The position numbers and the translations under genes were made by a program. A stretch of DNA of 64,000 nt. It comes from Euzebya pacifica. Lineage in GTDB: Bacteria > Actinomycetota > Nitriliruptoria > Euzebyales > Euzebyaceae. The DNA is taken from NCBI RefSeq assembly GCF_003344865.1, contig NZ_CP031165.1, positions 2,361,910 to 2,425,909 of the forward strand, read 5' to 3'. The stretch's first letter is position 1. Every line of letters starts with the position of its first letter. Under the pieces are notes generated by a model, which did not search any database, was not told the origin of the DNA, and saw nothing but the letters and a program-made list of their open reading frames with translations. This document shows positions 11,935-40,739 of the stretch, in pieces.

Positions 11935-11937
11935 GGT

Positions 11938-12351: not shown

Positions 12352-12374
12352 GTGACCTCCAAGAAGGGACTTGT

Positions 12375-14907: not shown

Positions 14908-14938
14908 CGAACTGCTACACCAGAAAAGGAGCACAGCC

Positions 14939-16711: not shown

Positions 16712-16743
16712 TGATTGACTAATCGATTGAACGTTTCTACGCT
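16712..16743 (+). promoter_or_regulatory. Promoter and overlapping operator for the transporter operon
   Basis: TTGACT at 16715-16720 and TACGCT at 16738-16743 are 17 bp apart. TGATTGACTAATCG at 16712-16725 overlaps the -35 box and matches the TGATTGATCAATCA consensus at 11 of 14 positions, including a GATT-N4-AATC inverted core. The first gene start (GTG 16771) is 28 bp downstream of the -10 box. The site probably couples uptake to the same TetR regulator as the other operons. Confidence 0.5.
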
Positions 16744-21425: not shown

Positions 21426-21463
21426 GCACGGGGCAACGACCATCTCGAAGCAGGGCGGAACGC

Positions 21464-23447: not shown

Positions 23448-24259
23448 CCGCCATCGAGCAATCACCGCAAACCAAGACTCCGATCCTCAAGTTGGAGCAG
23501 GTCGAGGTTGTCTACAACAAGCTCGCCACGGCGATAACCGGAGTGTCGGTGGAGGTAGCTGCTGGCGGCATCACCGCGGTCCTCGGGACCAACGGTGCCG
23601 GCAAGACCACCACCCTCAAGGCCGTGTCAGGCTTCCTGTCCTCCGACAATGCCGACATCACCGACGGGCACATCTTGCTGGACGGCGATGACATCACCGG
23701 GATGGCACCCCACCAGGTTGCACGCGGGGGCATCGCTTTGGTACCCGAACGCGACAAGGTGTTCGACACCCTCACGGTGCTGGACAACCTCAAGGCGTCC
23801 GCCAGGGTCGCCGACGGAGTGGAGGATGCCTTCGACGCATTCCCCCGCTTGAGAGCGGTGGAGCAGAACCTCGCCGGGTACCTGTCCGGCGGCGAGAAGC
23901 AGATGTTGGCAATGGCGATGGCGTTGTCCACCGGGCCGAGTTTGCTGCTGGTGGATGAGCTGTCGCTGGGCCTTGCACCGCTGATCGTCACCTCGCTGCT
24001 CCAGGACCTCCGGCGGGTCCAGCGGGCCCGGGGCATCTCGGTCCTCCTGGTTGAACAAAACGCGCTGGCCGCGCTCGATGTCGCCGACTACGGCTACGTG
24101 ATCGAGGACGGGCGGATCGTCTTCGACGGCACCCCGGAACAGCTTCTGGAGCACGGTGACATCAAGGAGTTTTACCTGGGCACGAACGATGCCGAAGCCG
24201 CGCGTCGCTCGTACAGGGACGTCCGACAGTACCGTCGAAAGCGGAGGTGGTGGGGATGA
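23444..24259 (+). CDS. livF: ABC importer ATP-binding protein LivF type (importer 1)
   Basis: The start is ATG 23444, which overlaps the LivM stop (ATGA); the longer frame has no support. The 271-residue protein has Walker A GTNGAGKTTT, signature LSGGEKQMLAMAMAL and Walker B SLLLVDELSLGLAP. The C-terminal tail (SYRDVRQYRRKRRWWG) extends past the usual end and is basic. The similar protein at 25080 ends with a related RRKRRWLS tail, so the two are recent paralogues. Confidence 0.9.
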   Translation: MTAIEQSPQTKTPILKLEQVEVVYNKLATAITGVSVEVAAGGITAVLGTNGAGKTTTLKAVSGFLSSDNADITDGHILLDGDDITGMAPHQVARGGIALVPERDKVFDTLTVLDNLKASARVADGVEDAFDAFPRLRAVEQNLAGYLSGGEKQMLAMAMALSTGPSLLLVDELSLGLAPLIVTSLLQDLRRVQRARGISVLLVEQNALAALDVADYGYVIEDGRIVFDGTPEQLLEHGDIKEFYLGTNDAEAARRSYRDVRQYRRKRRWWG

Positions 24260-25083
24260 CTCGGCCCATGCTCGAGATCGACCAGGTGACCATCCGGTTC
24301 GGCGCGATCGAGGCGGTCAGCAACGCGGACTTCTCCCTCAGCGAGGACGAACTGCTGGCACTCATCGGCCCCAACGGCGCCGGCAAGACGGCGTTGCTGA
24401 ACAGCGTCTGCGGTATCTACACACCTGCCTCCGGCGACATCCGCGCCAACGGGCGTTCGACGATCGGCGCGGCGCCGGACGAGATCGCCGCCATGGGGAT
24501 CGGCCGAGCGTTCCAGCATGGTGAGCTGTTCGGTGGCCTCACGGTGACCGAGAACCTCATGGTTGGACGGACCCGCCAGTTGTGGGGAGCCGTCGGGTGG
24601 GCCGGGTTCCGTTGGGGCCGCTACATGCGGCACGAGGTCGAAGCGCTCACTCGTGTTGAGCAGGTGATGGACTTCTTCGAGATCAGCCACCACCGGGACA
24701 CGATGGTGGAGGACCTGCCCTTCGGGCTGCAGAAGCTGGTCGGCGTCGCACGGGCACTGTGTGGGGACCCCGAGGTCCTCTTGCTGGACGAACCTTCCTC
24801 GGGGCTCACCCGGCAGGAGAAGGAGGACTTTGCCCGGTTCCTGCTCCGGATCAGACACGACCTCGGTCTCCCGGTCCTGTGGATCGAACACGACATGCAG
24901 ATGGTGATGGACCTGGCCGACCGGATCGTGGTGCTGGACTACGGAAAGATCATCGCTGACGGTGAGCCAGCCGCCGTCGCGTCGAGCCCCGCGGTTATTG
25001 ACGCCTATCTGGGCCGGCCACTCAACGCTGACGAGGGCGCGGTATCCCCCACCTCCCAACCAGAAGAGGTGGTGCCACGATGA
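24256..25083 (+). CDS. livG: ABC importer ATP-binding protein LivG type (importer 1)
   Basis: I start at ATG 24256, within the stop of the preceding gene and after GGAGGTGG. The 275-residue protein has Walker A GPNGAGKTALLN, the LivG-style signature LPFGLQKLVGVARALC and Walker B VLLLDEPSSGL. The C-terminus carries DYGKIIADGEPAAVASSP, typical for LivG. Partner of the preceding LivF-type ATPase. Confidence 0.88.
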   Translation: MTRPMLEIDQVTIRFGAIEAVSNADFSLSEDELLALIGPNGAGKTALLNSVCGIYTPASGDIRANGRSTIGAAPDEIAAMGIGRAFQHGELFGGLTVTENLMVGRTRQLWGAVGWAGFRWGRYMRHEVEALTRVEQVMDFFEISHHRDTMVEDLPFGLQKLVGVARALCGDPEVLLLDEPSSGLTRQEKEDFARFLLRIRHDLGLPVLWIEHDMQMVMDLADRIVVLDYGKIIADGEPAAVASSPAVIDAYLGRPLNADEGAVSPTSQPEEVVPR

Positions 25084-25880
25084 GTCTGTTGGGCGTGAAC
25101 AACCTCAAGGTCACCTACAACGACGTCGTCCTCGTCCTGCGCGGCCTGTCCTTCGACGTGGCCGAGGGAGCGGTGGTCGCGTTGCTCGGGAGCAACGGGG
25201 CCGGCAAGACCACGACCCTGAGGGCTCTCACTGGCCTGCTGCGCTACGAGGACGGTGAGATCGAAGGCGGGACGATTGAGTTCGCCGGAGAGCCCATCGG
25301 GGGTCTCCCGCCAGAACAGATCGTTGACCTGGGCCTGTCGCTCGTTCCCCAGGGTCGTCGGGTCTTTGAGGACCTGTCAGTGGAGGAGAACCTGCGGATC
25401 GGCGGGTTCCGTCGCGACGACCAATCCGAGGTCCGCGAGGAGTGCCATCTGTTCCTCAACGAGTTCCCGCGACTGCGCGAGAAGCGCAACCAGCCCGCCG
25501 GTCTTCTCTCGGGAGGCGAGCAGCAGATGCTGGTCCTCGGGAGGGCCCTCATGGCTCGACCCAAGCTGCTGCTGCTGGACGAGCCCTCCCTCGGGCTCGC
25601 GCCCCTCCACGTCGCCGAAGCTTTTCGGACCCTGCGCCACATCAACCGTGACCTCGGCACCACGATCCTGGTCGTGGAACAGAACGCCAGTTCGGCGTTG
25701 GCGATCGCGGAGTACTGCTACGTGATCGAGAACGGTCGAGTCGTCATCGACGGCACCAGTGAGGAACTGCTGGCCAACGAGGACGTCCAGGAGTTCTACC
25801 TCGGGATGAGCGACCTCGACCAACGCCGACGGTACGACGCTGTCAAGGCCTATCGCAGAAGAAAGAGGTGGCTGTCATGA
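25080..25880 (+). CDS. livF: ABC importer ATP-binding protein LivF type (importer 2)
   Basis: This 266-residue protein has Walker A GSNGAGKTTTLRAL, signature LLSGGEQQMLVLGRAL and Walker B LLLLDEPSLGLAP. It overlaps its neighbours by four bases on both sides. It resembles the ATPase at 23444, including the basic C-terminal tail, and should energise the second LivHM pair encoded at 28559-30478. Confidence 0.9.
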   Translation: MSLLGVNNLKVTYNDVVLVLRGLSFDVAEGAVVALLGSNGAGKTTTLRALTGLLRYEDGEIEGGTIEFAGEPIGGLPPEQIVDLGLSLVPQGRRVFEDLSVEENLRIGGFRRDDQSEVREECHLFLNEFPRLREKRNQPAGLLSGGEQQMLVLGRALMARPKLLLLDEPSLGLAPLHVAEAFRTLRHINRDLGTTILVVEQNASSALAIAEYCYVIENGRVVIDGTSEELLANEDVQEFYLGMSDLDQRRRYDAVKAYRRRKRWLS

Positions 25881-26701
25881 CCATCGGCCTCACCACCCGT
25901 GACCTCACCCTCCATCTGGGTGGCGTCACCGCCTTGAACGAGGTGAGCCTTTCAGTGCAACCGGGCACGGTTCACGCGCTGATCGGTCCCAACGGGGCAG
26001 GCAAGACCAGCTTCTTCAACTGCATCTCCGGCTTCTATCGGCCCACACCGGAGTCTTCAGTCACCCTCGGTGACGACGAGCTGCTGCGGCTGCGTCCGGA
26101 CCAAGTGGCCCAGCTCGGGGTCGCACGAGTCTTCCAGAACGTCGAGCTCTTCGGACGCGCGACGACCCTGCAGAACATGATGATGGGGCGCCACCGGTTG
26201 ATGCGATCCAACCTCTTCTCCGACGCGTTGTGGTTGGGTCGAACCCGCCGGGAGGAGAACGTCCACCGCGAGCGGGTCGAGGAACTGATCGAGTTCCTCG
26301 AAATGGAGGATGTGCGAGACACCGCCACCCACGACCTGCCCTACGGGATGCAGAAACGCGTGGAGCTCGGTCGGGCGCTCGCGATGGAGCCACGACTGCT
26401 GCTGCTGGACGAACCAGTCGCCGGTATGAACACCGAGGAGAAGGAGGACGTGGCGCGCTTCGTGCTGGACATCAAGCGACTGCTCAAAGTGACCATGATT
26501 CTGATCGACCATGACATGCATTTCGTGATGGACCTCGCCGACCAGGTCTCCGTCCTGGAGTTCGGCACCCTGATCGCCGACGGGAGTGCCGACCAGGTGC
26601 AGGGTGACCCACGGGTGATCGAGGCCTACCTGGGCGGGTCGGAAGGACTGGACCTGTCCATCGACGGTCAGGACAGCTGGGTCGGGGCGCTGCGCCGATG
26701 A
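25877..26701 (+). CDS. livG: ABC importer ATP-binding protein LivG type (importer 2)
   Basis: The start is ATG 25877, overlapping the previous stop (ATGA). The 274-residue protein has Walker A GPNGAGKTSFFNCI, LivG-type signature LPYGMQKRVELGRALA and Walker B RLLLLDEPVAGM followed by the D-loop. Together with the ATPase at 25080 it completes the second ATPase pair. Its stop overlaps the start of the second CoA ligase. Confidence 0.9.
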   Translation: MTIGLTTRDLTLHLGGVTALNEVSLSVQPGTVHALIGPNGAGKTSFFNCISGFYRPTPESSVTLGDDELLRLRPDQVAQLGVARVFQNVELFGRATTLQNMMMGRHRLMRSNLFSDALWLGRTRREENVHRERVEELIEFLEMEDVRDTATHDLPYGMQKRVELGRALAMEPRLLLLDEPVAGMNTEEKEDVARFVLDIKRLLKVTMILIDHDMHFVMDLADQVSVLEFGTLIADGSADQVQGDPRVIEAYLGGSEGLDLSIDGQDSWVGALRR

Positions 26702-28557
26702 ACGGGACGAGCCTCCTGTCGGGCAACGAACGGACGATCGACCACGTCGACGTCGGTGAACACGACACGTTTCCGAAGCTGTTGCGCCGCAACGCCCAGA
26801 CCCGGGGCGACCGGGTCGCCCTGCGGTGGAAGGAGTTGGGCGTTTGGCGGGAGGCGACCTGGCGGGAGTACCACGCCCGGGTGCGCGACGTGGCCTACGG
26901 GCTGATCGGCCTGGGGGTCTCCCCCGGCCGGGACCACATCGCGATCCTGGCCGACAACTGCGTGGAGTGGGTGCTGGCCGACCTCGCTGCCCAGTCGCTC
27001 GGGGCGGTGTCGGTTGGTGTCTACCCAACCAACACCGCGCCCCAGGTCGAGTACGTCGTGCGGCACGCGGGCTGTTCGGTCGTCGTCGCCTACGACCAAG
27101 AGCAGCTCGACAAACTGCTGGACAGTGACCTGCCAGACCTGCGGGCCATCATCGTGGTGGAGGAGAAGGGGTTGGCGCGGTACGACGACCCACGGATCTA
27201 CACCTTCGACGAGGTCGAGTCCTTGGGACACAAGCACCCCGACAACGACGTCGAAGGGTTCGACGAGTTGCTCGACCGCACCGCCACTGACGATGTCGGC
27301 ATCATCGTCTACACCTCCGGCACCACTGGACAGCCGAAGGGTGCCATGATCTCTCACCGCAACGTGTTGGCGATGGCCGATGGCTGGCTGCGACTCACGC
27401 CGTTCCGCGAGGACGACACCGTCGTGTCCTACCTTCCCCTGTGCCACATCCTCGAACGCTGCATGTCGGTCTTCCTCCCCTTGCTGGTCGGGTCCTCGGT
27501 GCACTTCGGCGAGGGCGTGCACACCATCAACCAGGATCTGCGCCAGATCGCCCCCACCGTGTTCGTCGGGGTGCCGCGGATCTGGGAGAAGATGCACGCT
27601 GCCCACGAGGTGTCGATCAGCGAGAGCAGCCGTGTCAACCGAACCATGTTCCGCAAGGGCATGCAGGTGGCCGAACAGGTTCAGCGTCGCCGCGAGCATG
27701 GCCAGCCCGTTTCGACGGCGCTGCGTGTGGGGCACTGGCTGGCAAGGGTCTTGGTGCTGCGAGCCGTCGTGGACCAGCTGGGACTGCGGCGAGCCCGGTT
27801 CCTGATGTGCGGCGCGGCGCCGGTGGCGCCGGAGATCCTCCGCTTCTTCGACGCGCTCGGCCTGCCGGTTCGCGAGGCGTACGGGCAAACCGAGTGCGCG
27901 GGGCTGGCAACCATCCATTCCGGTGACCAGCGACGGTACGGGACCGTCGGACACCTGTCACCGACGGTGGACGTGCAGCTGGCCGACGACGGCGAGATCC
28001 TCGTGCGCGGCGAGTCGGTGTTCTGTGGGTATCACCGCAACCCGGAAGCCACGGCCCTGACCGTCGTCGACGGCTGGCTGCACACCGGCGATGTCGGGAC
28101 GATGGACGGCGACTGTCTGCGCATCACTGATCGCAAGAAGGACATCATCATCACGGCCGGCGGAAAGAACGTCTCGCCCCAAGAGGTCGAGAACCACCTC
28201 AAGCTCAGTCCCTACATCAAGGAAGCTGTCGTTATCGGGGACCGCCGGAAGTATCTTGTCGGCCTCGTGCAGCTGGACTACGAGAACACGGGGTTGTGGG
28301 CTGAGCACGAGGGCATCGGCTACACCACCTACAAGGACCTGGCCACCACGGCAGAGGTGGTCGCCATGATCCAGGGCGAGGTCCGGCGTCTGTCTGACCA
28401 GCTGGCCCGGGTCGAGCAGGTCAAGAAGGTGTCGATCCTCACCAAGGAGCTCGACGAGGACGATGACGAGCTGACCGCGACCCAGAAGGTCCGCCGCAAG
28501 GTCATCGAGCAGCGGTACTGCGATCTGATCGAGTCCCTCTACGCCGAGGTGCCCTGA
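26698..28557 (+). CDS. Acyl-CoA ligase (AMP-forming), second copy
   Basis: This 619-residue adenylate-forming ligase has P-loop VYTSGTTGQPKGAMISHRN, VREAYGQTECAGLATIHSGD, and GDVGTMDGDCLRITDRKKDI with ITAGGKNVSPQEVENHLKLS. It has the same family architecture as the ligase at 18139 but differs in the pocket region, so it may prefer another acid. The position between ATPase genes and permease genes of importer 2 suggests uptake-coupled activation. Confidence 0.9.
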   Translation: MNGTSLLSGNERTIDHVDVGEHDTFPKLLRRNAQTRGDRVALRWKELGVWREATWREYHARVRDVAYGLIGLGVSPGRDHIAILADNCVEWVLADLAAQSLGAVSVGVYPTNTAPQVEYVVRHAGCSVVVAYDQEQLDKLLDSDLPDLRAIIVVEEKGLARYDDPRIYTFDEVESLGHKHPDNDVEGFDELLDRTATDDVGIIVYTSGTTGQPKGAMISHRNVLAMADGWLRLTPFREDDTVVSYLPLCHILERCMSVFLPLLVGSSVHFGEGVHTINQDLRQIAPTVFVGVPRIWEKMHAAHEVSISESSRVNRTMFRKGMQVAEQVQRRREHGQPVSTALRVGHWLARVLVLRAVVDQLGLRRARFLMCGAAPVAPEILRFFDALGLPVREAYGQTECAGLATIHSGDQRRYGTVGHLSPTVDVQLADDGEILVRGESVFCGYHRNPEATALTVVDGWLHTGDVGTMDGDCLRITDRKKDIIITAGGKNVSPQEVENHLKLSPYIKEAVVIGDRRKYLVGLVQLDYENTGLWAEHEGIGYTTYKDLATTAEVVAMIQGEVRRLSDQLARVEQVKKVSILTKELDEDDDELTATQKVRRKVIEQRYCDLIESLYAEVP

Positions 28558-28558
28558 G

Positions 28559-29425
28559 ATGCGGCTGCTGCAGGTCCTCGCCGACGGGCTGTCCAACGGC
28601 AGCATCTACGCCATGGTCGCGCTCGGGTTCGTTCTGGTGTACCGCTCCACGAAGGTGCTCAACTTTGCCCACGGCGAACTGCTGATGGTGGGCGCCTACT
28701 TCGCTCTGGTGGCGCTGGTGGACCTCGACCTGCCCTACCTCTTGGCGGTGCCCGCAGCGATGGTCGGTGCGGGGCTCGTTGCTTGGGCGCTTCAACGTTG
28801 GGTCCTTCGGCGACTACTGGACGAGGACGTTTTCTCCGTCGTCCTCGTCACGTTGGGTTTGTCCCTCATCCTCCGCTCGGCGGTGGCCTTCGTGTTCGGT
28901 GTCCGTGAACGAGCCCTTCCGGCTCCTGTGGACACCTACGTCGACGTTGGTCCTGTCAACGTCTGGAGCGTGCACCTGCTTGCCATCGGGGCGACGGTGC
29001 TGGTCTTCGCCGCAGTGGGCGCGTTCTATCGTCGCAGCCGGTACGGGCTCGCCATGCGAGCGATGGCTTCGGACCAGGCCGTTGCCCGGTTGATGGGCAT
29101 CAGCGCCTTCGCGGTCTTCGGACTGTCGTGGCTCATGGCCGGTGGCCTAGCTGCGTTGACTGGTGTCCTGGCCGGTCACACCGTGTTCGTGAGCAACAAC
29201 CTCGGGTTCGTGGCGATCAGGGCACTGCCCGCTGCGGTCATCGGTGGACTCGACAGCGTCCGAGGTGCACTCCTCGGTGGCCTGCTGCTGGGCGTGGCTG
29301 AGCAACTTGCGAGCTTCTACGTCGGGGGTGAGACGCGCGAATTGGCCGCGTTCGCTGCCCTGCTGCTGGTGCTTGTCGTGCGGCCGTACGGGTTGTTCGG
29401 CACTCCTGAGATCAAGAGGGTGTGA
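28559..29425 (+). CDS. livH: Branched-chain-type ABC importer permease LivH (importer 2)
   Basis: This 288-residue membrane protein starts two bases after the ligase stop codon begins its trailing A. It has the LivH hallmarks GSIYAMVALGFVLVYRSTKV with LNFAHGELLMVGAY, then YGLAMRAMASDQAVARLMGI and IGGLDSVRGALLGGLLLGVA. Hydrophobic helices fill most of the rest. It pairs with the LivM gene 6 bp downstream. Confidence 0.9.
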   Translation: MRLLQVLADGLSNGSIYAMVALGFVLVYRSTKVLNFAHGELLMVGAYFALVALVDLDLPYLLAVPAAMVGAGLVAWALQRWVLRRLLDEDVFSVVLVTLGLSLILRSAVAFVFGVRERALPAPVDTYVDVGPVNVWSVHLLAIGATVLVFAAVGAFYRRSRYGLAMRAMASDQAVARLMGISAFAVFGLSWLMAGGLAALTGVLAGHTVFVSNNLGFVAIRALPAAVIGGLDSVRGALLGGLLLGVAEQLASFYVGGETRELAAFAALLLVLVVRPYGLFGTPEIKRV

Positions 29426-29431
29426 CTGGTC

Positions 29432-30478
29432 ATGGCACGTTCGGGCAACTACCACATCAGGTACGAAGGTGAGCGGGCACTCTGGCCCACGACTGGACGT
29501 CGTCTCTGGACGGTCCTCCTGGCCGTCCTACTCGTGGCCTACCCCTTCGTGGCGGGTGAATACTTCGTCCATCTCGCCAACCAGGCACTCATCGTGGTGG
29601 TCGGCGCTGTCGGCCTGCAGCTGCTGACGGGGCAGACGGGACTCATTTCGCTCGCGCACGCGGCGTTCATCGCGGTCGGTGGGTATGCGGTCGGTGTTGT
29701 CTCGGTGCAAACAGACCTGTCGCTGCTCGCCGGACTGGGGGCGGCGGTCCTGTCCGCGGTTGCGCTGAGCCTCGTCGTCGGCCTTCCGTCCTTGCGGCTG
29801 GAGAGCCTCTACCTCGCCATCGCCACAATGGCCTTCCACTTCGCGCTGCTGTTCACCGTGACCCGTTTCGAACTCACGGGAGGGAACTTCGGGCTCCGGT
29901 TGGACCAGACCGAACTGTTCGGCTGGACGGTAAACACTCGACGGGAGTTCTACGTCGTGCTCGTGGTCACGGCCGTCGGCGCGGTGCTGATCGCCACCAA
30001 CCTGCGTCGTTCCAGGACTGGTAGGGCGTGGGGGGCTGTGCGTGACCGCGACTTGGCCGCACAGGCCATGGGGGTCAACCTCGCCCGGTTCAAGCTGTAC
30101 GCCTTCGCCGTGAGCGGAGCGTACGGGGCGATCGCCGGCGGTCTCTCAACGGCGTACCTCGGCACCACGGGGCCGGACCACTACACCTTTGAGCTCGCCG
30201 TGCAGTACTTGGCTATCGTAATCGTCGGTGGCCTGACCTCGCTGCCGGGGACGGTCATGTCGGCGGTACTTCTGTCACTGATGCCCGAGCTGTTGCGACT
30301 GGCGACCGGATGGTTGCAAGGCCCGCTGCCGGCGTTGGCTGACAACTTGCTGCTGCTGCAGTCCGGTCTCTATGGCGTGGTGCTCGTCGTGGTCCTGCTC
30401 GTCCAACCGGAGGGCCTCAACGGCGTCTGGGTTCGAGTCAAGAGGTGGTGGCTGAACTACCCGTACAGCTATCGCTGA
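29432..30478 (+). CDS. livM: Branched-chain-type ABC importer permease LivM (importer 2)
   Basis: This 348-residue membrane protein has GLQLLTGQTGLISLAHAAFI, LRLESLYLAIATMAFHFALL, WGAVRDRDLAAQAMGVNLAR and IVGGLTSLPGTVMSAVLLSL, all LivM features. It ends the 13.7-kb transporter run. The oxygenase operon follows behind its own promoter 20 bp later. Confidence 0.9.
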   Translation: MARSGNYHIRYEGERALWPTTGRRLWTVLLAVLLVAYPFVAGEYFVHLANQALIVVVGAVGLQLLTGQTGLISLAHAAFIAVGGYAVGVVSVQTDLSLLAGLGAAVLSAVALSLVVGLPSLRLESLYLAIATMAFHFALLFTVTRFELTGGNFGLRLDQTELFGWTVNTRREFYVVLVVTAVGAVLIATNLRRSRTGRAWGAVRDRDLAAQAMGVNLARFKLYAFAVSGAYGAIAGGLSTAYLGTTGPDHYTFELAVQYLAIVIVGGLTSLPGTVMSAVLLSLMPELLRLATGWLQGPLPALADNLLLLQSGLYGVVLVVVLLVQPEGLNGVWVRVKRWWLNYPYSYR

Positions 30479-30497: not shown

Positions 30498-30542
30498 TTG
30501 ACGACAATCGCTACGCGCGCTACGATTCTGATAGATCAATCA
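30498..30542 (+). promoter_or_regulatory. SigA-type promoter with downstream operator for the Paa-like operon
   Basis: TTGACG at 30498-30503 and TACGAT at 30521-30526 are exactly 17 bp apart. The near-palindrome TGATAGATCAATCA (30529-30542) covers the expected transcription start, three bases after the -10 box. On the other strand it reads TGATTGATCTATCA, 13 of 14 bases of the consensus. A ribosome-binding site (AAGGAG) and the paaA-like ATG follow at 30565. This is a classic repressor position. Confidence 0.65.
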
Positions 30543-30564
30543 ATCAAGTTCGAAGGAGAAGCAG

Positions 30565-31482
30565 ATGGCTACTACAAGCCACGCCGTGGAGGACGACAGA
30601 CTCGCGGTCAGGTACGAACTGTGGGACGACATGACCGATCAGTACCGACGGTATGCGGCCCGGATCGCGGCCTTTCAGACGCTCGCGGAAATCGTGGGCG
30701 TGCTCCCCTTCAGCGAGTGGATAGATCGTGTGCCCACCTACCACCGCAAGCAGATGCTCGTGGCCAAGGTCCAGGACGAGGTCGGTCACGGTCATGTGAT
30801 GGCCCGTGTCGCCGAGGATCTGGGTCTCAGTCGGGAGCAGGTGGTCGATGACTTCCTGACCGGCAAGACCAAGCTGCTCTCGATCTTTCACTATGGGTTC
30901 GATTTGTGGGAAGAGATCGGCCCGGCGGCCCTGCTGATGAATTCGGCGGCCATCGTGCAGTTTCAGTCGCTTGAGCAGGGGACCTATCTTCCCTACGCGC
31001 GCGCACTGCGCAAGATCGAGAAGGAAGAGTCCTTCCACTACCACCATGCCCTGGACCTGACTCACGAGGTCCTGACCACCGGCACCGACGAGCAGCGGGC
31101 GGTCGTGCAGGACGCATTCGAGGTTTGGCTGCCTCGCATGCTGGCCTACTTCGGCCCCCCGGACTCCGACACCGTCGCCGAGAACACGATGTACAAGCTC
31201 GGCCTGAAGGTCGACAGCAACGACAGCCTGCGCCAGCGTTGGCTGGACAAGATCATCCCGGTCTTCGAGCAGCTGGGGGTCGATGTGCCGCACGAACTCG
31301 TCCACTTCGACGAGTCCCTGGGGGAGTGGGTCTACGCCACCCCTGACTGGGAGGAAACCAACGCCATGATCAAAGAGGGTGGCCCTCGTGCCGCCGACTG
31401 GGAAGCGCTCCTACGCGAATCCTTCAGTCGGAACGCCCCGTACAAGCATGCGGCACTCAACGCCGACGTCGTCCCGGTCTGA
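30565..31482 (+). CDS. paaA: PaaA-like catalytic subunit of a multicomponent acyl-CoA oxygenase (epoxidase)
   Basis: This 305-residue protein belongs to the PaaA/PaaC di-iron family. The helical ferritin-like motifs are visible: KVQDEVGHGHVMARVAEDLG with E72 and H75, and RKIEKEESFHYHHALDLTHE with E155 and H158. PaaA is the catalytic subunit of 1,2-phenylacetyl-CoA epoxidase, which inserts one oxygen into the aromatic ring. Length and motif spacing fit PaaA. The true substrate is unknown: the surrounding genes suggest an aromatic or alicyclic acyl-CoA rather than necessarily phenylacetyl-CoA. It is expressed from the repressible promoter just upstream. Confidence 0.85.
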   Translation: MATTSHAVEDDRLAVRYELWDDMTDQYRRYAARIAAFQTLAEIVGVLPFSEWIDRVPTYHRKQMLVAKVQDEVGHGHVMARVAEDLGLSREQVVDDFLTGKTKLLSIFHYGFDLWEEIGPAALLMNSAAIVQFQSLEQGTYLPYARALRKIEKEESFHYHHALDLTHEVLTTGTDEQRAVVQDAFEVWLPRMLAYFGPPDSDTVAENTMYKLGLKVDSNDSLRQRWLDKIIPVFEQLGVDVPHELVHFDESLGEWVYATPDWEETNAMIKEGGPRAADWEALLRESFSRNAPYKHAALNADVVPV

Positions 31483-31484
31483 TC

Positions 31485-31793
31485 ATGCTTGGTGCCCAAG
31501 CGATCGACGGCGACGCCTACGAGGTCTTCGGGCAGTTCGGTACCACTCGCGAGATCGCCCACCTCGGCAGCGTTCGTGGGCGCGACCCGGAGCTGGCCTG
31601 GCATGCCGCCAAGGAGGTCTACACCCGCCGCGAGCGCGCGACGCTGTTGTGGGTCGTTCCTCGCGCGGCGATCACCAGCGGAGGGCCAGATCGCGCGGTG
31701 ACACTGATGTCATCGACGCGGATGCCGTTCCGGACGCCCGCCTATCCGGGGCGCAACCGCCGCAATCGCATGCAAACCCCAGTAGAGGAGTAG
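31485..31793 (+). CDS. paaB: PaaB-like subunit
   Basis: This 102-residue protein starts two bases after the PaaA stop. It matches PaaB in size and pattern: YEVFGQFGTTREIAHLGSVR, then AWHAAKEVYTRRERATLLWV and VPRAAI. PaaB bridges the PaaAC subcomplexes in the epoxidase. The Arg/Asn-rich C-terminal tail (PYPGRNRRNRMQTPVEE, starting AYPGRNRR) extends beyond the typical protein. Confidence 0.82.
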   Translation: MLGAQAIDGDAYEVFGQFGTTREIAHLGSVRGRDPELAWHAAKEVYTRRERATLLWVVPRAAITSGGPDRAVTLMSSTRMPFRTPAYPGRNRRNRMQTPVEE

Positions 31794-31795
31794 GT

Positions 31796-32536
31796 GTGAA
31801 CAGCGCAACCGCATGGACCCCGCTGGTCGGGGCCTGGGCAGAAGATCTGTTCCTTCACGGACACGACTTGGCCCGCTGGATCACCGACTACGTCGACCTG
31901 GAGGAATCACTGGCCGTGGGTTCGATGAGCCAAGAGGGCCTCGCCCACGCGGCGAACCTTTGGGCTGCTCTCGGCCACGATTCCGAATGGCGGGATCACA
32001 AGGTCTACCGCAGCGAACCCGCCGAGTGGGGTCCGTCCGCGTTGTGTGCCACCCGGTTGCTGGACTGGCCGGCCACGGTGGTCCGGGGACTCCTCGTCGC
32101 CGAGGGCGCGCTGACACTGCTCGACCGTCTGGAGTCGCAGGTCGAGTCCCTTCGACACGTGGCGGCAGTGCTCGCCGCAGAGCAGCGGTTGCACGCGCAC
32201 CACTGGCAGCGGTGGGTACGAGTGCTCGGTCACGACCCGGCCACCAAGGACGACTTCGTCAAGGTGCTCGCTGCTGGATGTGGCGCGGCGAGCGACCTGT
32301 TCGGTGCTCTATCCACGTCGTCCTTCACCGACGACGCGCTCCTGGGCGAGTTGCACGTCCAGTGGGTCACACGAGTTCGTGCAGCCATCGCTGCCGGAGG
32401 GGTCGAGATTCCGGAGATGCCGAGCCGGTCCCCGAGGAAGCAGATGGAGGAGCATGCCCCGCTGGCGGCGATTCTCGATGGCATCCGAGGCGTCCGAACC
32501 GCACATCCAGACTGGAACTACGAGGTCGTGGAGTGA
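31796..32536 (+). CDS. paaC: PaaC-like structural subunit
   Basis: I start at GTG 31796, directly behind the PaaB stop. The 246-residue helical protein aligns with PaaC by pattern: LARWITDYVDLEESLAVGSM, MSQEGLAHAANLWAALGHD, ESLRHVAAVLAAEQRLHAHH and DDALLGELHVQWVTRVRAAI. PaaC is the non-catalytic paralogue of PaaA and forms its stable partner. Sequence drift is larger than in PaaA, as expected for this subunit. Confidence 0.8.
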   Translation: MNSATAWTPLVGAWAEDLFLHGHDLARWITDYVDLEESLAVGSMSQEGLAHAANLWAALGHDSEWRDHKVYRSEPAEWGPSALCATRLLDWPATVVRGLLVAEGALTLLDRLESQVESLRHVAAVLAAEQRLHAHHWQRWVRVLGHDPATKDDFVKVLAAGCGAASDLFGALSTSSFTDDALLGELHVQWVTRVRAAIAAGGVEIPEMPSRSPRKQMEEHAPLAAILDGIRGVRTAHPDWNYEVVE

Positions 32537-32574
32537 TCACGACATCCCTGCCCCGCGGCGGGTTGGAGGACGGA

Positions 32575-33045
32575 ATGACGAAGACCGAATTGATTCATCA
32601 AGCATTGAATCGCGTGGAGGACCCCGAAATCGCCATCACCCTTCGAGATCTGGGCGTGCTACGTGACGTCGAGGTGTCTGCCACCTGCGTGGACGTCCGG
32701 TTGGTGCCGACCCGGGTCGCGTGCCCGGGGAGGGCACTCATGGCGAGGCGGGTGCGTGAGGCGGTCGAGTCGGTGGACTCGGCTCTGGAGACACGCCTGA
32801 CTTGGGACCACGAGTCCTGGGGCTCTTCCGACATCACTCCCCATGGCTGCTCGGTGCTGCAGGAACAAGGCTTCGTGCCTGAGTCCTCGGCTGACCCGGT
32901 CTGTCCCTACTGCGGCAGCACGAACCTCCGGCCGGAGGGCAGCTTCGGCGGTTCCCTGTGCAAGCGGCCCTTCACCTGCCGCAACTGCGGCTCCACGGTG
33001 GACCTGCTGGCAGGCGCCTCCCTCCCGATCGTGTCGGTGTCCTGA
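32575..33045 (+). CDS. paaD: PaaD-like maturation/assembly protein
   Basis: I start at ATG 32575 behind TTGGAGGACGGA; the frame is open further but lies over PaaC. The 156-residue product has an N-terminal DUF59/MIP18-like domain (VEDPEIAITLRDLGVLRDVE) and a C-terminal zinc/iron site with Cys110, Cys113, Cys129, Cys135 and Cys138 (CPYCGS and CRNCGS). PaaD is thought to help assemble the metal centre. The expected PaaE reductase does not follow; a MaoC gene does. The operator-like sequence TGATTCATCAAGCA falls inside its first codons (32591-32604). Confidence 0.83.
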   Translation: MTKTELIHQALNRVEDPEIAITLRDLGVLRDVEVSATCVDVRLVPTRVACPGRALMARRVREAVESVDSALETRLTWDHESWGSSDITPHGCSVLQEQGFVPESSADPVCPYCGSTNLRPEGSFGGSLCKRPFTCRNCGSTVDLLAGASLPIVSVS

Positions 33046-33049: not shown

Positions 33050-33937
33050 ATGCGGGTAGAACGCTCCCATCGGCCCGTCTTCCCGCCGGTCACCTTCGTC
33101 CCGGGTGAACGCCTGAGCACGGTCAACTACGCCCGGGCTCTGGGCTTGCAGGATGCCGAGTTGCTCGACGTCAGCGCCGCCCGGTCGTCTGGCTTGGGTG
33201 CCCGGCCTGTCCTGCCCGCGATGTTCGGCTTCTTCCTGGCGGTGACGACAGAGGACCTCACCGAGACCTTGTCGTTCACATGGGGGCGGACCCTGAACGT
33301 CGGTATCGACGTGCGCTGGCATGGCCTGCCCGTCACCGAAGAGGACCAGGTCGCCGGGCGTGCCATGGTCGTTGACGCCTGGGAGCGGGCCGGCTCACGC
33401 GGGGGCCACCGACAGTTCCTCCGATTGCGTGCGGGATTCGCACGTGGCGACACGCCTGTCTGTGACTGGGAGGTCTTGTTCACCGAATCGCGTGACGAGC
33501 CCACCATGGAACCAGTGGACGACCACGACCCTCGTGACGACCAGGGCGTGACCGCCCTCGACCCCGATGGTGCCGGGCGCGAGCTTCCACAGGTCGTGAG
33601 CCCCGTGGTGGACCGGATGATGCTCGCGCGCCTCTCCGTGGCCCTGGACAACCCCGACCCGTTGCACCTCGATGACGAGGTGGCGCGCAAGGCCGGCTTC
33701 GACTCGGTCATCGGTCAAGGGTCGGCCGTGGTCGGCATGCTGCACGAGCCCTGGCGGCAGGCAAACGGGCTCGATGTCCCGTTCACGCTGCGGAGCCAAC
33801 AGCTTCGGCCCTACGGGCTCGGTGACCGGTTGGTCGCTGCGGGAAGTGTGGCCGACGATGGTTCAGCCACCGTCGAGGTGTGTGACCAAGAAGGCAACGT
33901 CATCGGCCGAGGGTCGCTGCAGGAGGGACTGCGGTGA
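33050..33937 (+). CDS. Two-domain MaoC protein (double hotdog enoyl-CoA hydratase)
   Basis: I start at ATG 33050, five bases after the PaaD stop. The 295-residue protein joins a MaoC_dehydrat_N-like half (FPPVTFVPGERLSTVNYARA to about residue 150) to a MaoC half with the catalytic motif DNPDPLHLDDEVARKAGFDS and IGQGSAV. Such fused hydratases act on long or bulky enoyl-CoAs. In the phenylacetate pathway the MaoC part of PaaZ hydrolyses the oxepin ring; since PaaZ is absent here, this gene is a candidate replacement, which is an inference only. Confidence 0.8.
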   Translation: MRVERSHRPVFPPVTFVPGERLSTVNYARALGLQDAELLDVSAARSSGLGARPVLPAMFGFFLAVTTEDLTETLSFTWGRTLNVGIDVRWHGLPVTEEDQVAGRAMVVDAWERAGSRGGHRQFLRLRAGFARGDTPVCDWEVLFTESRDEPTMEPVDDHDPRDDQGVTALDPDGAGRELPQVVSPVVDRMMLARLSVALDNPDPLHLDDEVARKAGFDSVIGQGSAVVGMLHEPWRQANGLDVPFTLRSQQLRPYGLGDRLVAAGSVADDGSATVEVCDQEGNVIGRGSLQEGLR

Positions 33938-34683
33938 CGAGGCATACCCGTCGCGTCGCCATCGTCACTGGTGCCGCACGGGGCATCGGGGTCGGCATCG
34001 TGGACCGCCTCCTCGCCGCCAACTTCGCGGTTGGCGTGATCGACATGGACAGCGACACTGTCGCGGAGCGGGTCGGGAACTGGCGGAGCGAGGACGCGCC
34101 GGTCGTGGGGGCGACCGCGGATGTCGCCGACTCCGAGGCCGTCCGGGGCGCGGTCTCCAGTGTCACCCGCGAGCTGGGTTCGGTGGACGTCGTGGTCAAC
34201 AACGCCGGTGTGTGGACATTTCAACCGTTCGTGTCCTCCGACCCCGCTCAGTGGATGCGCGACATCGGTGTGAACCTGATTGGGACCCTGACCGTGACAC
34301 GGGAAGTCCTTCCGGGGATGGTCTCTCGCCGGTTCGGACGGGTGATCAACATCGTCTCGGACTCTGGACGAGTGGGAGAACTCAACGTTGCGGCGTACGC
34401 GGCGGCGAAGGCGGGAGTGATGGGGTTCTCTCGAGCCCTCGCCAAGGAGGTCGGGCGCGATGGAGTCACGGTGAACAACGTGTCGTTGTCCACGACGCTC
34501 ACGCCCGGTGCCCATGACACCTACGACGAGGCGCAGCTGACCAAGATGACCCGTCGTTACCCAGTCGGCCGCCTCGGGACTCCGTCGGATGCAGCCGGTG
34601 CGGTTGCGTACTTCGCGTCTGACGAAGCCGAATGGGTCACCGGACAGACCCTGTCGGTGAACGGCGGCTACGCGATGCTCTAG
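33934..34683 (+). CDS. SDR-family oxidoreductase
   Basis: This 249-residue short-chain dehydrogenase starts at GTG 33934, overlapping the MaoC stop (GTGA). Motifs: TGAARGIGVG for the cofactor, NNAG, the catalytic Ser in NIVSDSGR, and YAAAKAG. It likely oxidises a 3-hydroxyacyl-CoA or a ring hydroxyl. It ends the oxygenase operon and overlaps the convergent TetR gene by four bases. Confidence 0.88.
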   Translation: MTRHTRRVAIVTGAARGIGVGIVDRLLAANFAVGVIDMDSDTVAERVGNWRSEDAPVVGATADVADSEAVRGAVSSVTRELGSVDVVVNNAGVWTFQPFVSSDPAQWMRDIGVNLIGTLTVTREVLPGMVSRRFGRVINIVSDSGRVGELNVAAYAAAKAGVMGFSRALAKEVGRDGVTVNNVSLSTTLTPGAHDTYDEAQLTKMTRRYPVGRLGTPSDAAGAVAYFASDEAEWVTGQTLSVNGGYAML

Positions 34684-35333
34684 GCCTGGGCGGGCTCGGC
34701 TGTCGGTTCGCCCAAACCGGCTTGGCCGAGCCCAATGAGGTCGAGAAAGACGGTGGCGATCTCCTTGGGGGTGAGGGGGCCACTCGAACGGAACCACCGG
34801 TGCGTCCAGCTGATCATCCCCACAATCCCTTGCGCGACGACCCATGGAGGCGCGTCCGACGGCAGGTCCCCCGATGCCTGTAGGTCCCGCACGACCTCGG
34901 CAATGTGGCTGACGAACAACCGCTCGTCCTCAGCAATCTGATGACGTAGGTCCTGCGACAACTGGTGCAGTTCCTTGTAGTAGACGGTGTAGGGGACCTG
35001 GCTGTCGATCACCGCCTCCGTGAACCGTGTCACGATTTCCACGAGGTGGGCTCGGGCGTCTCCGCGCGGTCCAGAATCCGCCAGCACACCACGCATGGTC
35101 TGGTCGATCCCAAGAGCGATCTCGTGTAGCAAGTCCTCCTTGGAGCCGACGTAGTGGTAGATCGCCGGCTGTGACAGCCCCACGCGCGCTGCGATGTCCT
35201 TGGTGGTCCCAGCGACGAACCCCCGGTCAGCGAACACCTCCCCGGCCGCGGCGAGGATGCGGCGTCGCTTGTCGTCGAAGTCGTTGCCTAGCGACGGTCT
35301 GGGCTGGCTTGACGCACTCATTCGCGAACTCAT
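34680..35333 (-). CDS. TetR-family repressor, candidate master regulator of the island
   Basis: This 217-residue protein has a clear N-terminal helix-turn-helix: KRRRILAAAGEVFADRGFVA, then TTKDIAARVGLSQPAIYHYV with GSKEDLL. The C-terminal half (VYYKELHQLSQDLRHQIAED, then VVAQGIVGMISWTHRWFR) looks like the CoA-ester-binding domain of KstR2-type regulators. It lies between the oxygenase operon and the divergent SDR/enoyl-hydratase genes. I infer that it binds the TGATTGATCAATCA-like sites at 12375, 16712, 30529, 36121 and 40705; the other TetR at 8412 is the alternative. Confidence 0.88.
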   Translation of the reverse strand: MSSRMSASSQPRPSLGNDFDDKRRRILAAAGEVFADRGFVAGTTKDIAARVGLSQPAIYHYVGSKEDLLHEIALGIDQTMRGVLADSGPRGDARAHLVEIVTRFTEAVIDSQVPYTVYYKELHQLSQDLRHQIAEDERLFVSHIAEVVRDLQASGDLPSDAPPWVVAQGIVGMISWTHRWFRSSGPLTPKEIATVFLDLIGLGQAGLGEPTAEPAQA

Positions 35334-35375: not shown

Positions 35376-36098
35376 CTAGTTATGGCCGCAGGAGAGTCCG
35401 CCGTCGACGTAGATTGTCTGCCCCGAGACATATGCCGCAGCCGGGCTGCAGAGGAAGTCAATCACACCGGCAACGTCGGTCGGTGTGCCCGCCCGTCGAG
35501 CCGGGACACCGGAAATGAACCTCTCGTACGCGGCTGGGGCCCGCTGCTTGAACTCAGCGGTCCCAGGGGTGTCGATGACGCCGGGGCACACCACATTGGC
35601 CGTGATACCCGCAGGACCGCCCTCGATCGCGACCGTTCGGGCAAGTCCCACCAACCCCGCCTTCGCCGCCGCGTAGTTGGCCTGGCCGAAATTGCCGTCC
35701 TTGGCCACCGACGACAGATAAACCATGCGTCCGGTTCCCGCCGACGACATCGCCGCCCACAAGGCCTGGGTCAGTCGAAACCCGGCGGTCAAGTCGACGC
35801 GGATCACCTCGTCCCAGTCGGCGGCCCGCATGTGCCCGACCCTGGCGTCTCGCTGGATCCCGGCGTTGGCCACGCCGACCGTCGATGGGCCGAACCGCGC
35901 GGTGACGCGAGCAACCGCAGCGATTAGAGCATCGGCGTCGGCGACGTCACACTCGATGCCGAGCAGGTTGGGGTGACGGGTGGACTCCACCGTGGGATCG
36001 AGGTCCAGCGCACCAACGTGTAGGCCGGACTCCAGCAGTTTTGTTACCACGCTGGCTCCAATACCACGCGCGGCGCCCGTCACGATCGCGGTCACCAT
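35376..36098 (-). CDS. SDR-family oxidoreductase (FabG-like)
   Basis: This 240-residue short-chain dehydrogenase has TGAARGIGAS near residue 7, GVANAGIQ in place of NNAG, Ser in VYLSSVAK, YAAAKAG, and the terminal YVDGGLSCG. It may act as a 3-hydroxyacyl-CoA dehydrogenase in the same beta-oxidation scheme. It is divergent from the enoyl-CoA hydratase at 36143 with 44 bp between the starts; the shared region contains a GATTGATTGA element. Confidence 0.87.
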   Translation of the reverse strand: MVTAIVTGAARGIGASVVTKLLESGLHVGALDLDPTVESTRHPNLLGIECDVADADALIAAVARVTARFGPSTVGVANAGIQRDARVGHMRAADWDEVIRVDLTAGFRLTQALWAAMSSAGTGRMVYLSSVAKDGNFGQANYAAAKAGLVGLARTVAIEGGPAGITANVVCPGVIDTPGTAEFKQRAPAAYERFISGVPARRAGTPTDVAGVIDFLCSPAAAYVSGQTIYVDGGLSCGHN

Positions 36099-36120
36099 TT
36101 CACGACGCTCACTCCTTGTT

Positions 36121-36134
36121 TATCGATTGATTGA
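36121..36134. promoter_or_regulatory. Weak member of the operator family between divergent genes
   Basis: TATCGATTGATTGA lies in the 44-bp divergent region. The run GATTGAT matches the first half of the consensus, but the second half is not conserved (about 9 of 14 positions). The run CGATTGAACG is shared with the region right of the 16712 site. I list it as a possible operator only. Confidence 0.3.
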
Positions 36135-36142
36135 ACGCTAGC

Positions 36143-36949
36143 ATGGCCACGCACATGGAACAAGATCACTCCGCGGCTCCGGTACTCGTCAATCGCGCCG
36201 ATGGGGTGCTTCACCTCACACTCAACCGGCCGGACCGTCTCAACGCCCTCGACGCGGAGAGCGTCGAGCGATGTCGTGACGCACTCATCTCTGTGGAGGA
36301 CGACCACTCGGTCGGCGCGGTGGTGATATCAGGAGCTGGTCGCGCCTTTTGCGCCGGACGAGACGTGGAGACCCTCCACGACGTGCCCGACCGGCGACCC
36401 ATGAACCCGGCTGATCGGGCAGCAGCACGCAGGCACGAGCACGATCGTCTCGTCAACGGGTTCTCCGTCGTCACATTGCTGCGCGCCCTCCGCGTTCCCT
36501 GTGTCGCCGCGCTCCACGGGGCTGTTGCCGGGGCTGGCCTCGGAATCGCGCTGGCCTGCGATCTGCGGGTGGTCGCGACCAACACCACACTGGTCTCGGC
36601 CTATGGCCGGATCGGGCTGCCCGGCGACTGGGGGGTCACGTGGCTGCTCCCGCGCGTGCTGGGTGATTCTGTCGCGAAGAAGATGCTGCTGACCGGGCAC
36701 CGGCCAAGCGTGGCAACCCTGGACACCCTGGGATTCGCGAGCGCGGTCGTGGCGCCCGAGGACGTCACCGAGGAGGCGCTGCGCCAGGCGGCGACGTTGG
36801 CGGCTGGCCCACGAATCGCCCATCGGCACATGAAGGCGCTGATGCACGAGGACGGGTTGCTCGAACACCTCGTCAAGGAGGCCGAAGCCACCATGGAGTG
36901 CCAGGAGTCCGACGCCCACCGAACGGCGCTCGAACGATTCATCGGGTGA
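36143..36949 (+). CDS. Enoyl-CoA hydratase/isomerase (crotonase) family
   Basis: I prefer ATG 36143; a TTG at 36131 would lie in the operator. The 268-residue protein has the crotonase pattern: LHLTLNRPDRLNALDAESVE, GAGRAFCAGRDVETL (oxyanion loop), and the second loop LHGAVAGAGLGIALACDLRV with RIGLPGDWGVTWLLPRVLGD. PaaG-like isomerases and EchA hydratases share this layout. It probably hydrates or isomerises an unsaturated intermediate after ring opening. Confidence 0.88.
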   Translation: MATHMEQDHSAAPVLVNRADGVLHLTLNRPDRLNALDAESVERCRDALISVEDDHSVGAVVISGAGRAFCAGRDVETLHDVPDRRPMNPADRAAARRHEHDRLVNGFSVVTLLRALRVPCVAALHGAVAGAGLGIALACDLRVVATNTTLVSAYGRIGLPGDWGVTWLLPRVLGDSVAKKMLLTGHRPSVATLDTLGFASAVVAPEDVTEEALRQAATLAAGPRIAHRHMKALMHEDGLLEHLVKEAEATMECQESDAHRTALERFIG

Positions 36950-38124: not shown

Positions 38125-38610
38125 TCAATGCTCCTGCTGGGTGTTGGGATTGGGGGTTGCGTCGCCGGGTGTGAGGCCGTCCGCGCGTCGCGCGAGAAGT
38201 CCGGTGGTGGAGAACGACATCAGGACCGAGTCGTCGTGGTCCAGCACCTCAAAGTCCATCCGGATGAAGCCGCGTCCGCGCGTGGTGAGACGGCGCTCGG
38301 AGATGGTCACCCGTGCCCTGATGCGGTCCCCAGGTCGGGTCGGGGCGAACCATCGGGCGTCATCGAGGGAGATGCCGCCCTGGCCGTCCTGCTCCATCAC
38401 CCCGTGGGTCATCCACAACGACCAAGCGATGGACATGGTGTGAAAGCCCGAGGCGATGAGGCCACCAAAGGGGCCTCCCTCCGCGAACGCCGGGTCGGTG
38501 TGCATGGGTTGCGGGTCGTAGTCCGACGCGAACGCGATGACGTCCTCGGTGGTGATCAGTTGGGCGCGGGTCTCGTGAACCGAACCGAGCTCGATTTCCT
38601 CGTACTTCAC
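38125..38610 (-). CDS. MaoC-family enoyl-CoA hydratase
   Basis: I start at GTG 38610 (preceded by GGAGTGG), which overlaps the stop of the acyl-CoA dehydrogenase gene (GTGA). The 161-residue protein contains the motif DYDPQPMHTDPAFAEGGPFG followed by GLIASGFHT, with Gln in place of Asn. It hydrates an enoyl-CoA, fitting its position between two acyl-CoA dehydrogenase genes. Confidence 0.85.
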   Translation of the reverse strand: MKYEEIELGSVHETRAQLITTEDVIAFASDYDPQPMHTDPAFAEGGPFGGLIASGFHTMSIAWSLWMTHGVMEQDGQGGISLDDARWFAPTRPGDRIRARVTISERRLTTRGRGFIRMDFEVLDHDDSVLMSFSTTGLLARRADGLTPGDATPNPNTQQEH

Positions 38611-39815
38611 CGTCCACTCCCGTGTCCGGAAAGGGCAGCCCGCCCCAGCATGTTCAGCAGGCTCTCGGAGGTGCCGCCAGCGATGGTCCAGCCGCGCACC
38701 TCTCGGAGGATGCGCTCGGCTGGATGGTCCTCGGCGCTGACGATGCCGCGCCATCCCAGCATCTGTATGGCCGCATCGGCCGCGGCCACGGCCACGCGGG
38801 ATGCGGCCAGCTTGGCCCGTGCAGTGTCCAGACCGTCGGGAAAGCCGTGTTCGTCCACGCGCGAGGCGGCCCGGTACGTAAGGAGCCTCGCGGACTCCAA
38901 CTCCAGCTCGAGTTCAGCGATCCGCCATTGAAGGCCCTGCCGTCTCGCAAGCGGCCGTCCCCCCTGTACCCGCTGCGCGAGGTGAGCCTCGGCCAGGTCG
39001 AGCGCCCGGCGGGCCACGCCGCAGCACATGCCGGCGATACCGATCCGCATGGCGTTGTAGCTCTGCATGGCCAGGGCGAAGCCCCCTGAGTCGGGGTGGA
39101 TGACGATCGCCTCGTCATCGATGCCAGCGACCGCGAAGTCGATGACCGCCTCTGGTGTGGCGTTGCCCCCGATCTTGCGGTGGACCTGTCGCACGTCGCA
39201 GCCGGGGGCGCCCGCGTCTACCAACACATAGCCCAGTCCACGAACCCCCGGGCTCTCCCCCATCCGCGCCATCACCAGGTGGGCGCCTGCCAGGGAGCCC
39301 CCGGTCACGAAGCACTTCGTGCCTGACACCGACCAACCGACTGGATCGGACGTGGCGTTCGTCGCGATCTCCGCCAAGGACGATCCGGCGTCGACTTCGG
39401 TGATCGCGATCGAGATGAGGGTCTCGCCGGCCAGGACCCGGGGGACCCATCGATCCCGTAGCCTGGGGGCGGCGATGGTCGACAGAACGTATGCCGGGCC
39501 GTTGGCCGCAATCTGGGTCGCCTCGGCGAGGGTGAACGAGTGCTGGGCGAGCGCCTCGAGCACCACGACAGCCGCGAGCCGGGGCAATCCGGCCCCGCCG
39601 GCCTCCTCAGGGTGGGTCAGGCCCAGTACCCCGTGGGACCCCAGGACCGCCACCTCCGGCCAGGGGAACCTGCCCTCGGCGTCCCAGAGGTGGTCCTCGC
39701 CAGCGAGCGACGCGGCCAGTTGCCCTGCCCGGTCAGCGAGTTCTTGGTAGACGGTGGGCAGCTCGGGTGACCAGCCACGAACCGTGGGATCGATCTGGAG
39801 GTCGAGGACGGTCAT
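38607..39815 (-). CDS. Acyl-CoA dehydrogenase, second (possibly non-canonical) copy
   Basis: This 402-residue protein keeps the acyl-CoA dehydrogenase fold: LGLTHPEEAGGAGLPRLAAV, SIAITEVDAGSSLAEIATNA, and a C-terminal MLGWRGIVSAEDHPAERILR. The active-site segment reads GWTIAGGTSESLLNMLGR, with Gly where the catalytic Glu of EGT normally lies. Steroid-type dehydrogenases can be heteromers with one inactive subunit, so it may pair with 36966, or the base may be elsewhere. Start and stop overlap the neighbours. Confidence 0.83.
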   Translation of the reverse strand: MTVLDLQIDPTVRGWSPELPTVYQELADRAGQLAASLAGEDHLWDAEGRFPWPEVAVLGSHGVLGLTHPEEAGGAGLPRLAAVVVLEALAQHSFTLAEATQIAANGPAYVLSTIAAPRLRDRWVPRVLAGETLISIAITEVDAGSSLAEIATNATSDPVGWSVSGTKCFVTGGSLAGAHLVMARMGESPGVRGLGYVLVDAGAPGCDVRQVHRKIGGNATPEAVIDFAVAGIDDEAIVIHPDSGGFALAMQSYNAMRIGIAGMCCGVARRALDLAEAHLAQRVQGGRPLARRQGLQWRIAELELELESARLLTYRAASRVDEHGFPDGLDTARAKLAASRVAVAAADAAIQMLGWRGIVSAEDHPAERILREVRGWTIAGGTSESLLNMLGRAALSGHGSGR

Positions 39816-40687: not shown

Positions 40688-40718
40688 AGTATAGTCAACC
40701 CGACTGATTGATCAATCC
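40688..40718. promoter_or_regulatory. Divergent promoter region with near-perfect operator
   Basis: TGATTGATCAATCC at 40705-40718 contains the perfect 12-bp palindrome GATTGATCAATC (40706-40717). On the minus strand TTGATC (40710-40715) and TATACT (40688-40693) are 16 bp apart and would drive the amidohydrolase gene, which starts six bases further (leaderless). The operator covers the -35 box. The divergent aldehyde dehydrogenase starts at 40740 after AGGAGG. Confidence 0.65.
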
Positions 40719-40739
40719 AAAACTATCAGGAGGTACACG

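Follow-up and report, generated by a model that had tools for sequence, protein, structure and literature searches.

The closest described counterparts of the locus analysed here are the phenylacetyl-CoA epoxidases. In E. coli PaaA, iron is expected to be bound by Glu42, Glu72, His75, Asp126, Glu155 and His158, a "lysine bridge" is formed by Lys68 with Glu49, Glu72 and Asp126 (PMC4498308; PMC7497051), and Phe108 orients the phenyl ring of the substrate (PMC4498308). Many bacteria possess separate aldehyde dehydrogenase and hydratase proteins in place of PaaZ (PMC7497051), and the use of PaaA and PaaC as genomic markers for phenylacetate degradation has been suggested (PMC13186573). A precedent for a ferredoxin-type electron route is offered by benzoyl-CoA epoxidase, in which BoxB is reduced by BoxA, a protein carrying two [4Fe-4S] clusters (PMC4498308).

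We analysed a stretch of 64,000 nucleotides from the Euzebya pacifica genome (G000), hereafter the window. A first-pass annotation had reported complete PaaA, PaaB, PaaC and PaaD analogues spanning positions 30498-33045. All four are present in A-B-C-D order, each with a Pfam match, and the end at 33045 was correct; the start at 30498 was not, since this is a TTG in a different frame and PaaA begins at 30565:

30565..31482, plus strand: PaaA-like catalytic subunit, 305 aa (NCBIfam, Pfam, ligand alignment, tree, predicted fold)
31485..31793, plus strand: PaaB-like bridging subunit, 102 aa (Pfam PaaB, 54.8 bits; TIGR02157, 40 bits)
31796..32536, plus strand: PaaC-like structural subunit, about 246 aa (Pfam PaaA_PaaC, 64.8 bits)
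about 32584..33045, plus strand: PaaD-like maturation protein with a zinc ribbon (Pfam FeS_assembly_P and Zn_ribbon_PaaD; TIGR02159, 73 bits); a GTG at 32533 is a possible earlier start

All four subunits exceed the Pfam gathering scores, PaaA reaching 167 bits for PaaA_PaaC (PF05138). Against the curated NCBIfam models, PaaA scores 243 bits for an equivalog cut-off of 280, PaaB 40 bits for a cut-off of 85 and PaaD 73 bits for a cut-off of 108, all three thus falling below, and PaaC has no NCBIfam match. The predicted PaaA model (mean pLDDT 81, built without metal and therefore uninformative on active-site geometry) matches PaaA 4iit_A with Z 33.2 over 293 residues, and by this structural match the protein would adopt the ferritin-like fold of the PaaA_PaaC superfamily. 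When compared to the corresponding syntenic cluster in another species of the genus (G001), dN/dS was 0.07 for PaaA and 0.17-0.24 for PaaB, PaaC and PaaD, and these low values indicate four intact genes subject to purifying selection.

Maximum-likelihood analysis of 42 PaaA-family proteins places the window PaaA within a group of 16 (support 100/100) whose stem of 1.95 changes per column sets it apart from 21 canonical and five more distant sequences, the canonical proteins forming a separate group (support 90/86). The exact joining point of this clade is unsure, as the tree program flags a meeting of long branches there; its monophyly is not in doubt. The clade is rare and actinobacterial. 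Of the 396 genomes sampled from the phylum, two contain it, both belonging to the genus of the window, and a scan of 84,980 species with two peptide patterns returned 13 clade loci, so that the size of the clade is a lower bound; no relative was found in the viral contigs searched. A second, canonical PaaABCD is encoded elsewhere in the same genome (C1:1599824-1602445; L004:14825-17446), its PaaA scoring 387 bits, above the cut-off. No paa pathway genes were found around it among those tested; this set is likewise without a PaaE in the genome, and its neighbourhood is kept in G001-G003. The proposal that the window encodes a paralogue outside the phenylacetyl-CoA clade is borne out by the below-cut-off score of PaaA and by its own fully supported clade, and the locus is not the only one of its kind in the genome. 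As judged from sequence, the window oxygenase is a cousin and not a member of the phenylacetyl-CoA epoxidases, and does not show most of the defining traits of such an enzyme that were tested.

The window PaaA aligns without gaps to the solved PaaA chains across the ligand region, and its numbering equals that of Klebsiella PaaA at all ligand and bridge sites. The di-iron ligand motifs first read in it prove to be incomplete: E42, E72, H75, E155 and H158, five of the six predicted ligands, are kept, and D126 is replaced by N. In the lysine bridge, K68 and E72 are retained, E49 is replaced by F and D126, again, by N. All 16 clade members carry Asn126 and either Phe or Tyr at position 49 while keeping the other five ligands and Lys68, and Asp126 is present in every sequence outside the clade (26/26), including five distant paralogues without Lys68. 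Phe108 is kept in the clade. It is to be noted that Asn126 could weaken metal binding, a point against the di-metal enzyme that we favour below.

The window contains no PaaE gene, as originally reported, and this absence extends to the whole of G000, where a search with the PaaE model gave a single match of 97.6 bits against a cut-off of 420.8. This match was rejected as a PaaE because it scores far below the cut-off, lies outside the window and adjoins a fatty-acid desaturase; the same search was positive above the cut-off in six of nine other genomes. A shared or distant reductase, as had been suggested, is the only kind remaining in G000. Three catabolic sister clusters outside the genus, in Prauserella (L017), Nocardioides (L018) and Frankiales (L028), encode together with PaaABCD an FdxA-type ferredoxin (113-119 aa) and a thioredoxin-reductase-like flavoprotein (336-341 aa). 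The Prauserella ferredoxin passes the FdxA_Actino model (151.6 bits, cut-off 125). The flavoprotein reaches 157 bits, below the thioredoxin-reductase cut-off of 343, and has the C-terminal end LFPGHSS, which we take to be that of YumC-type ferredoxin-NADP reductases and by which we name it a ferredoxin reductase. In Prauserella, paaABCD, crotonase, ferredoxin, thiolase, MaoC and reductase form a single same-strand run; in Nocardioides and Frankiales the ferredoxin is encoded 3' of paaABCD, and an operator-like site separates the reductase gene from the divergently oriented ligase gene. Matches to the PaaE model exist in all three genomes, above the cut-off in Prauserella (490 and 478 bits) and near it in Nocardioides (398 and 368 bits) and Frankiales (417 bits), and the ferredoxin/reductase pair is therefore not a mere replacement for a lost PaaE.

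G000, G001 and G002 each possess one close homologue of this reductase (57-58% identity) and one FdxA, both encoded at a distance from the oxygenase. In G000, the reductase (476 bits, the next match scoring 107) is located at C1:2520550 and the ferredoxin (136 bits) at C1:4392941, far from the cluster, and no operator was found upstream of either. These homologues are candidate donors, and in G000 they may be housekeeping proteins since G002, which is without the oxygenase, has both too. This PaaABCD-type oxygenase probably uses a ferredoxin and a ferredoxin reductase; for the window enzyme itself, we can only infer that the G000 homologues would fill this role.

The oxygenase genes are embedded in a larger set, which is collinear in G001 from 12449 to 44525:

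11545..16569: two MaoC-type genes (minus strand), then thiolase, SDR, MaoC, SCP-x-like thiolase and ChsH2-type OB-fold protein (plus strand)
18139..20055, plus strand: acyl-CoA ligase (AMP-binding), 57-58% identical to the Nocardioides and Frankiales cluster ligases
20085..26701, plus strand: branched-chain-amino-acid-type ABC transporter genes (binding protein, two permeases, ATPases), named from sequence and homology, with Pfam run for some only
26698..30478, plus strand: second acyl-CoA ligase (26698-28557) and second permease pair
33050..33937, plus strand: MaoC/FAS1-type dehydratase (NCBIfam/Pfam)
33934..34683, plus strand: SDR dehydrogenase, closest to BadH among the NCBIfam models (200 bits, below the cut-off of 431), 56-57% identical to the Frankiales and Prauserella cluster SDRs
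34680..35321, minus strand: TetR-family regulator sharing 46% identity with its Prauserella and Frankiales cluster counterparts
35376..36098, minus strand: SDR dehydrogenase (NCBIfam)
36143..36949, plus strand: crotonase, with the alternative type of oxepin-CoA hydrolase as its best NCBIfam match at 162 bits (cut-off 300) and PaaG behind it at 132 bits
36966..38123, minus strand: acyl-CoA dehydrogenase (NCBIfam)
38125..38610, minus strand: MaoC dehydratase, with a homologue in 3/3 sister clusters (46-53%)
38607..39815, minus strand: acyl-CoA dehydrogenase-like protein, 53% to a Frankiales cluster protein
39812..40681, minus strand: amidohydrolase (Pfam Amidohydro_2)
40740..42125, plus strand: stand-alone aldehyde dehydrogenase, 68% to a Prauserella cluster protein
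42122..43339, plus strand: thiolase, PRK06205 subfamily (above cut-off)
43377..44525, minus strand: CoA-transferase family III (Pfam)

The first five ABC transporter genes have conserved counterparts in both the Nocardioides and the Frankiales cluster. No PaaK or PaaZ had been recognised in the first-pass annotation; the two AMP-binding ligases can fill the role of PaaK, and the missing PaaZ is a weak sign of oddity, a separate aldehyde dehydrogenase and hydratase kinds both being present. Just past the cluster, two minus-strand open reading frames (45111-46267) have the look of an IS3-type transposase pair, and no IS3-like pair was called at the corresponding place in G001.

That a common operator serves this gene set was confirmed by matches to TTGATTGATCAATCAA at the promoters at 12375, 30528 and 40704. 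With up to three mismatches allowed, the pattern matches six times in the window (overlaps counted) for 0.02 expected in shuffles. The sites, given without strand, are:

12375..12390: predicted operator TTGATTCATCAATCAA (pattern count)
16717..16730: operator-like GACTAATCGATTGA (related sequence)
30528..30547: predicted operator CTGATAGATCAATCAATCAA, 37 bases 5' of paaA and likewise before paaA in sister loci
36119..36136: operator-like TTTATCGATTGATTGAAC, between SDR and crotonase (found by eye, outside the counted matches)
40704..40719: predicted operator CTGATTGATCAATCCA, preceding the aldehyde dehydrogenase (pattern count)

A further match at 32590, inside or just past the start of paaD, may be a chance hit. 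In Prauserella, Nocardioides and Frankiales the site lies 30-37 bases 5' of paaA, an equally good one being present in 0.1-0.4% of random 60-base stretches per locus. The TetR-family regulator at 34680..35321 is the likely reader of the operator. The strict pattern occurs at one place only in G000 outside the window, a double site at C1:2947706; it was set aside as probably belonging to another regulator, since the operon that it precedes encodes a TetR of its own and no redox partner that would matter here.

Clade members occur in two genomic contexts. An SDR and a MaoC constitute the catabolic core common to the window, G001, Prauserella, Nocardioides and Frankiales loci, most of which also have a regulator, ligase, ABC transporter, aldehyde dehydrogenase, thiolase or acyl-CoA dehydrogenase. 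The other 11 loci (L015, L019-L027, L029), from Streptomyces, Microbispora, Sphaerisporangium and Actinoplanes, display a near-constant order of two ketoacyl-synthase-III-like genes, PaaA, a PaaB-PaaC fusion, PaaD, SDR and enoyl-CoA hydratase, followed in most by an AMP-ligase, an MFS transporter and a P450. Their gene content suggests that this cluster is apparently biosynthetic. Neither a ferredoxin nor a reductase gene is found near these loci, a second point against the explanation we prefer. In openly available papers we found neither the biosynthetic cluster nor a PaaE-less actinobacterial paralogue, which does not prove that none has been described.

The sequences themselves show the genes and the clade to which they belong, as well as the altered residues, the operator and what the sister clusters contain; an oxygenase activity, a CoA-ester substrate, an electron path and a pathway order are what we infer. 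The system is probably a heteromeric PaaABC-family oxygenase with a di-metal centre that acts on a CoA thioester other than phenylacetyl-CoA, with electrons delivered by an FdxA-type ferredoxin and its reductase. An acid would be imported by the ABC transporter and activated by an acyl-CoA ligase; its CoA thioester would be oxygenated by PaaABC, with PaaD maturing the complex, and the product broken down by the SDR, MaoC, crotonase, aldehyde dehydrogenase, acyl-CoA dehydrogenase and thiolase proteins. Electrons would pass through a thioredoxin-reductase-like NAD(P)H:ferredoxin reductase and a soluble FdxA-type ferredoxin in place of the one-piece PaaE, the pair being built into the catabolic sister clusters and represented in the genus of the window by single homologues elsewhere in the chromosome. 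More tentatively, the clade as a whole might be a lineage of di-metal CoA-ester oxygenases in which the Asp ligand became Asn, with its own FdxA/reductase chain, possibly a different reaction, and both catabolic and biosynthetic use. Ibuprofen was considered as a substrate, N. carbamazepini having been reported to degrade it (PMC10076411); nothing ties ibuprofen degradation to the locus.

A narrower form of the preferred explanation, which we regard as possible and rather unlikely, is the hydroxylation of an alicyclic or aliphatic acyl-CoA, followed by oxidation to a ketone by the BadH-like dehydrogenase and ring opening by a BadI/MenB-like crotonase. BadI and MenB are the best-matching models for the crotonase that follows paaD in the sister clusters (261 bits), BadH is the best match of the conserved SDR, and an acyl-CoA dehydrogenase weakly matches cyclohexanecarboxyl-CoA dehydrogenase, an ensemble that would fit alicyclic hydroxylation, oxidation and hydrolytic ring opening. 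However, every one of these scores lies below its curated cut-off, best hits of SDRs and crotonases are poor guides to substrate, and the window's own crotonase is not BadI-like; resembling the alternative oxepin-CoA hydrolase, it would fit an epoxide route. It is improbable that the locus encodes an ordinary phenylacetyl-CoA epoxidase that diverged after PaaE loss and is served by any reductase of the cell. The canonical subunit order, the retention of Phe108 and the existence of PaaABCD without flavin-type PaaE in Deinococcus and haloarchaea would agree with this, whereas the sub-threshold PaaA lies outside the canonical clade with Asp126 and Glu49 replaced, an above-threshold canonical set is kept in the same genome, and the catabolic sisters bring a ferredoxin and reductase despite a canonical-type PaaE elsewhere. 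That the Asp126-to-Asn change, universal in the clade, absent outside it and coupled to the one at Glu49, produced a non-oxygenase or a differently metallated enzyme is more improbable still, given the five invariant ligands, the strong selection on PaaA and the electron-transfer pair kept in sister clusters as expected of a redox enzyme.

The clade-wide replacement of Asp126 and Glu49, the sister-cluster ferredoxin/reductase pair and the second branch in a biosynthetic-type cluster of 11 actinomycetes are apparently new, the residue change and the electron pair being the parts of most interest to a specialist. The clade provides a natural test for the role of the Asp126 ligand and lysine bridge in CoA-ester epoxidases, its ferredoxin/reductase pair is a specific candidate for the role of electron donor where PaaE is missing, and it leads to an uncharacterised biosynthetic cluster employing the same oxygenase. 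It could also be wrongly counted as phenylacetate degradation if PaaA and PaaC serve as markers.

Other non-canonical PaaA_PaaC-family paralogues, those of Thermus (paaA_2), Haladaptatus, Agrobacterium, Rhodococcus and G002 contig 6, are more distant from the window protein than the canonical enzymes are; all keep Asp126 and are without Lys68, and no gene named paaE is present in the annotated stretches of their loci. The G002 contig 6 locus (L056, about 7455-15900) carries a third PaaA type grouping with Thermus paaA_2, surrounded by two aldehyde dehydrogenases and two crotonases. On a Rhodococcus pseudokoreensis plasmid (L083, 4944-8140), the gene of a very divergent PaaA_PaaC-family protein has in its vicinity one for a PDR/VanB-family oxidoreductase that might serve as its reductase. 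BoxB, a di-iron CoA-ester oxygenase, shares the fold of the window PaaA (Z 19.7), and the [4Fe-4S] clusters of BoxA carry electrons in the manner expected of an FdxA-type ferredoxin (PMC4498308). BoxB is however a single polypeptide without PaaB or PaaC partners, whereas homologues of both directly follow PaaA in the window, and BoxA unites flavin and clusters in one protein where the catabolic sister clusters have two. Compared to PaaABCD of E. coli and Klebsiella, the window set has the same subunits, order and predicted fold (Z 33.2 to 4iit_A), with about 36% identity over the PaaA fold alignment. It keeps five of six di-iron ligands, Lys68 and Phe108, and differs in the change of Asp126 to Asn and, across the clade, of Glu49 to Phe or Tyr, in its lack of PaaE, in forming a clade of its own and in its surrounding genes.
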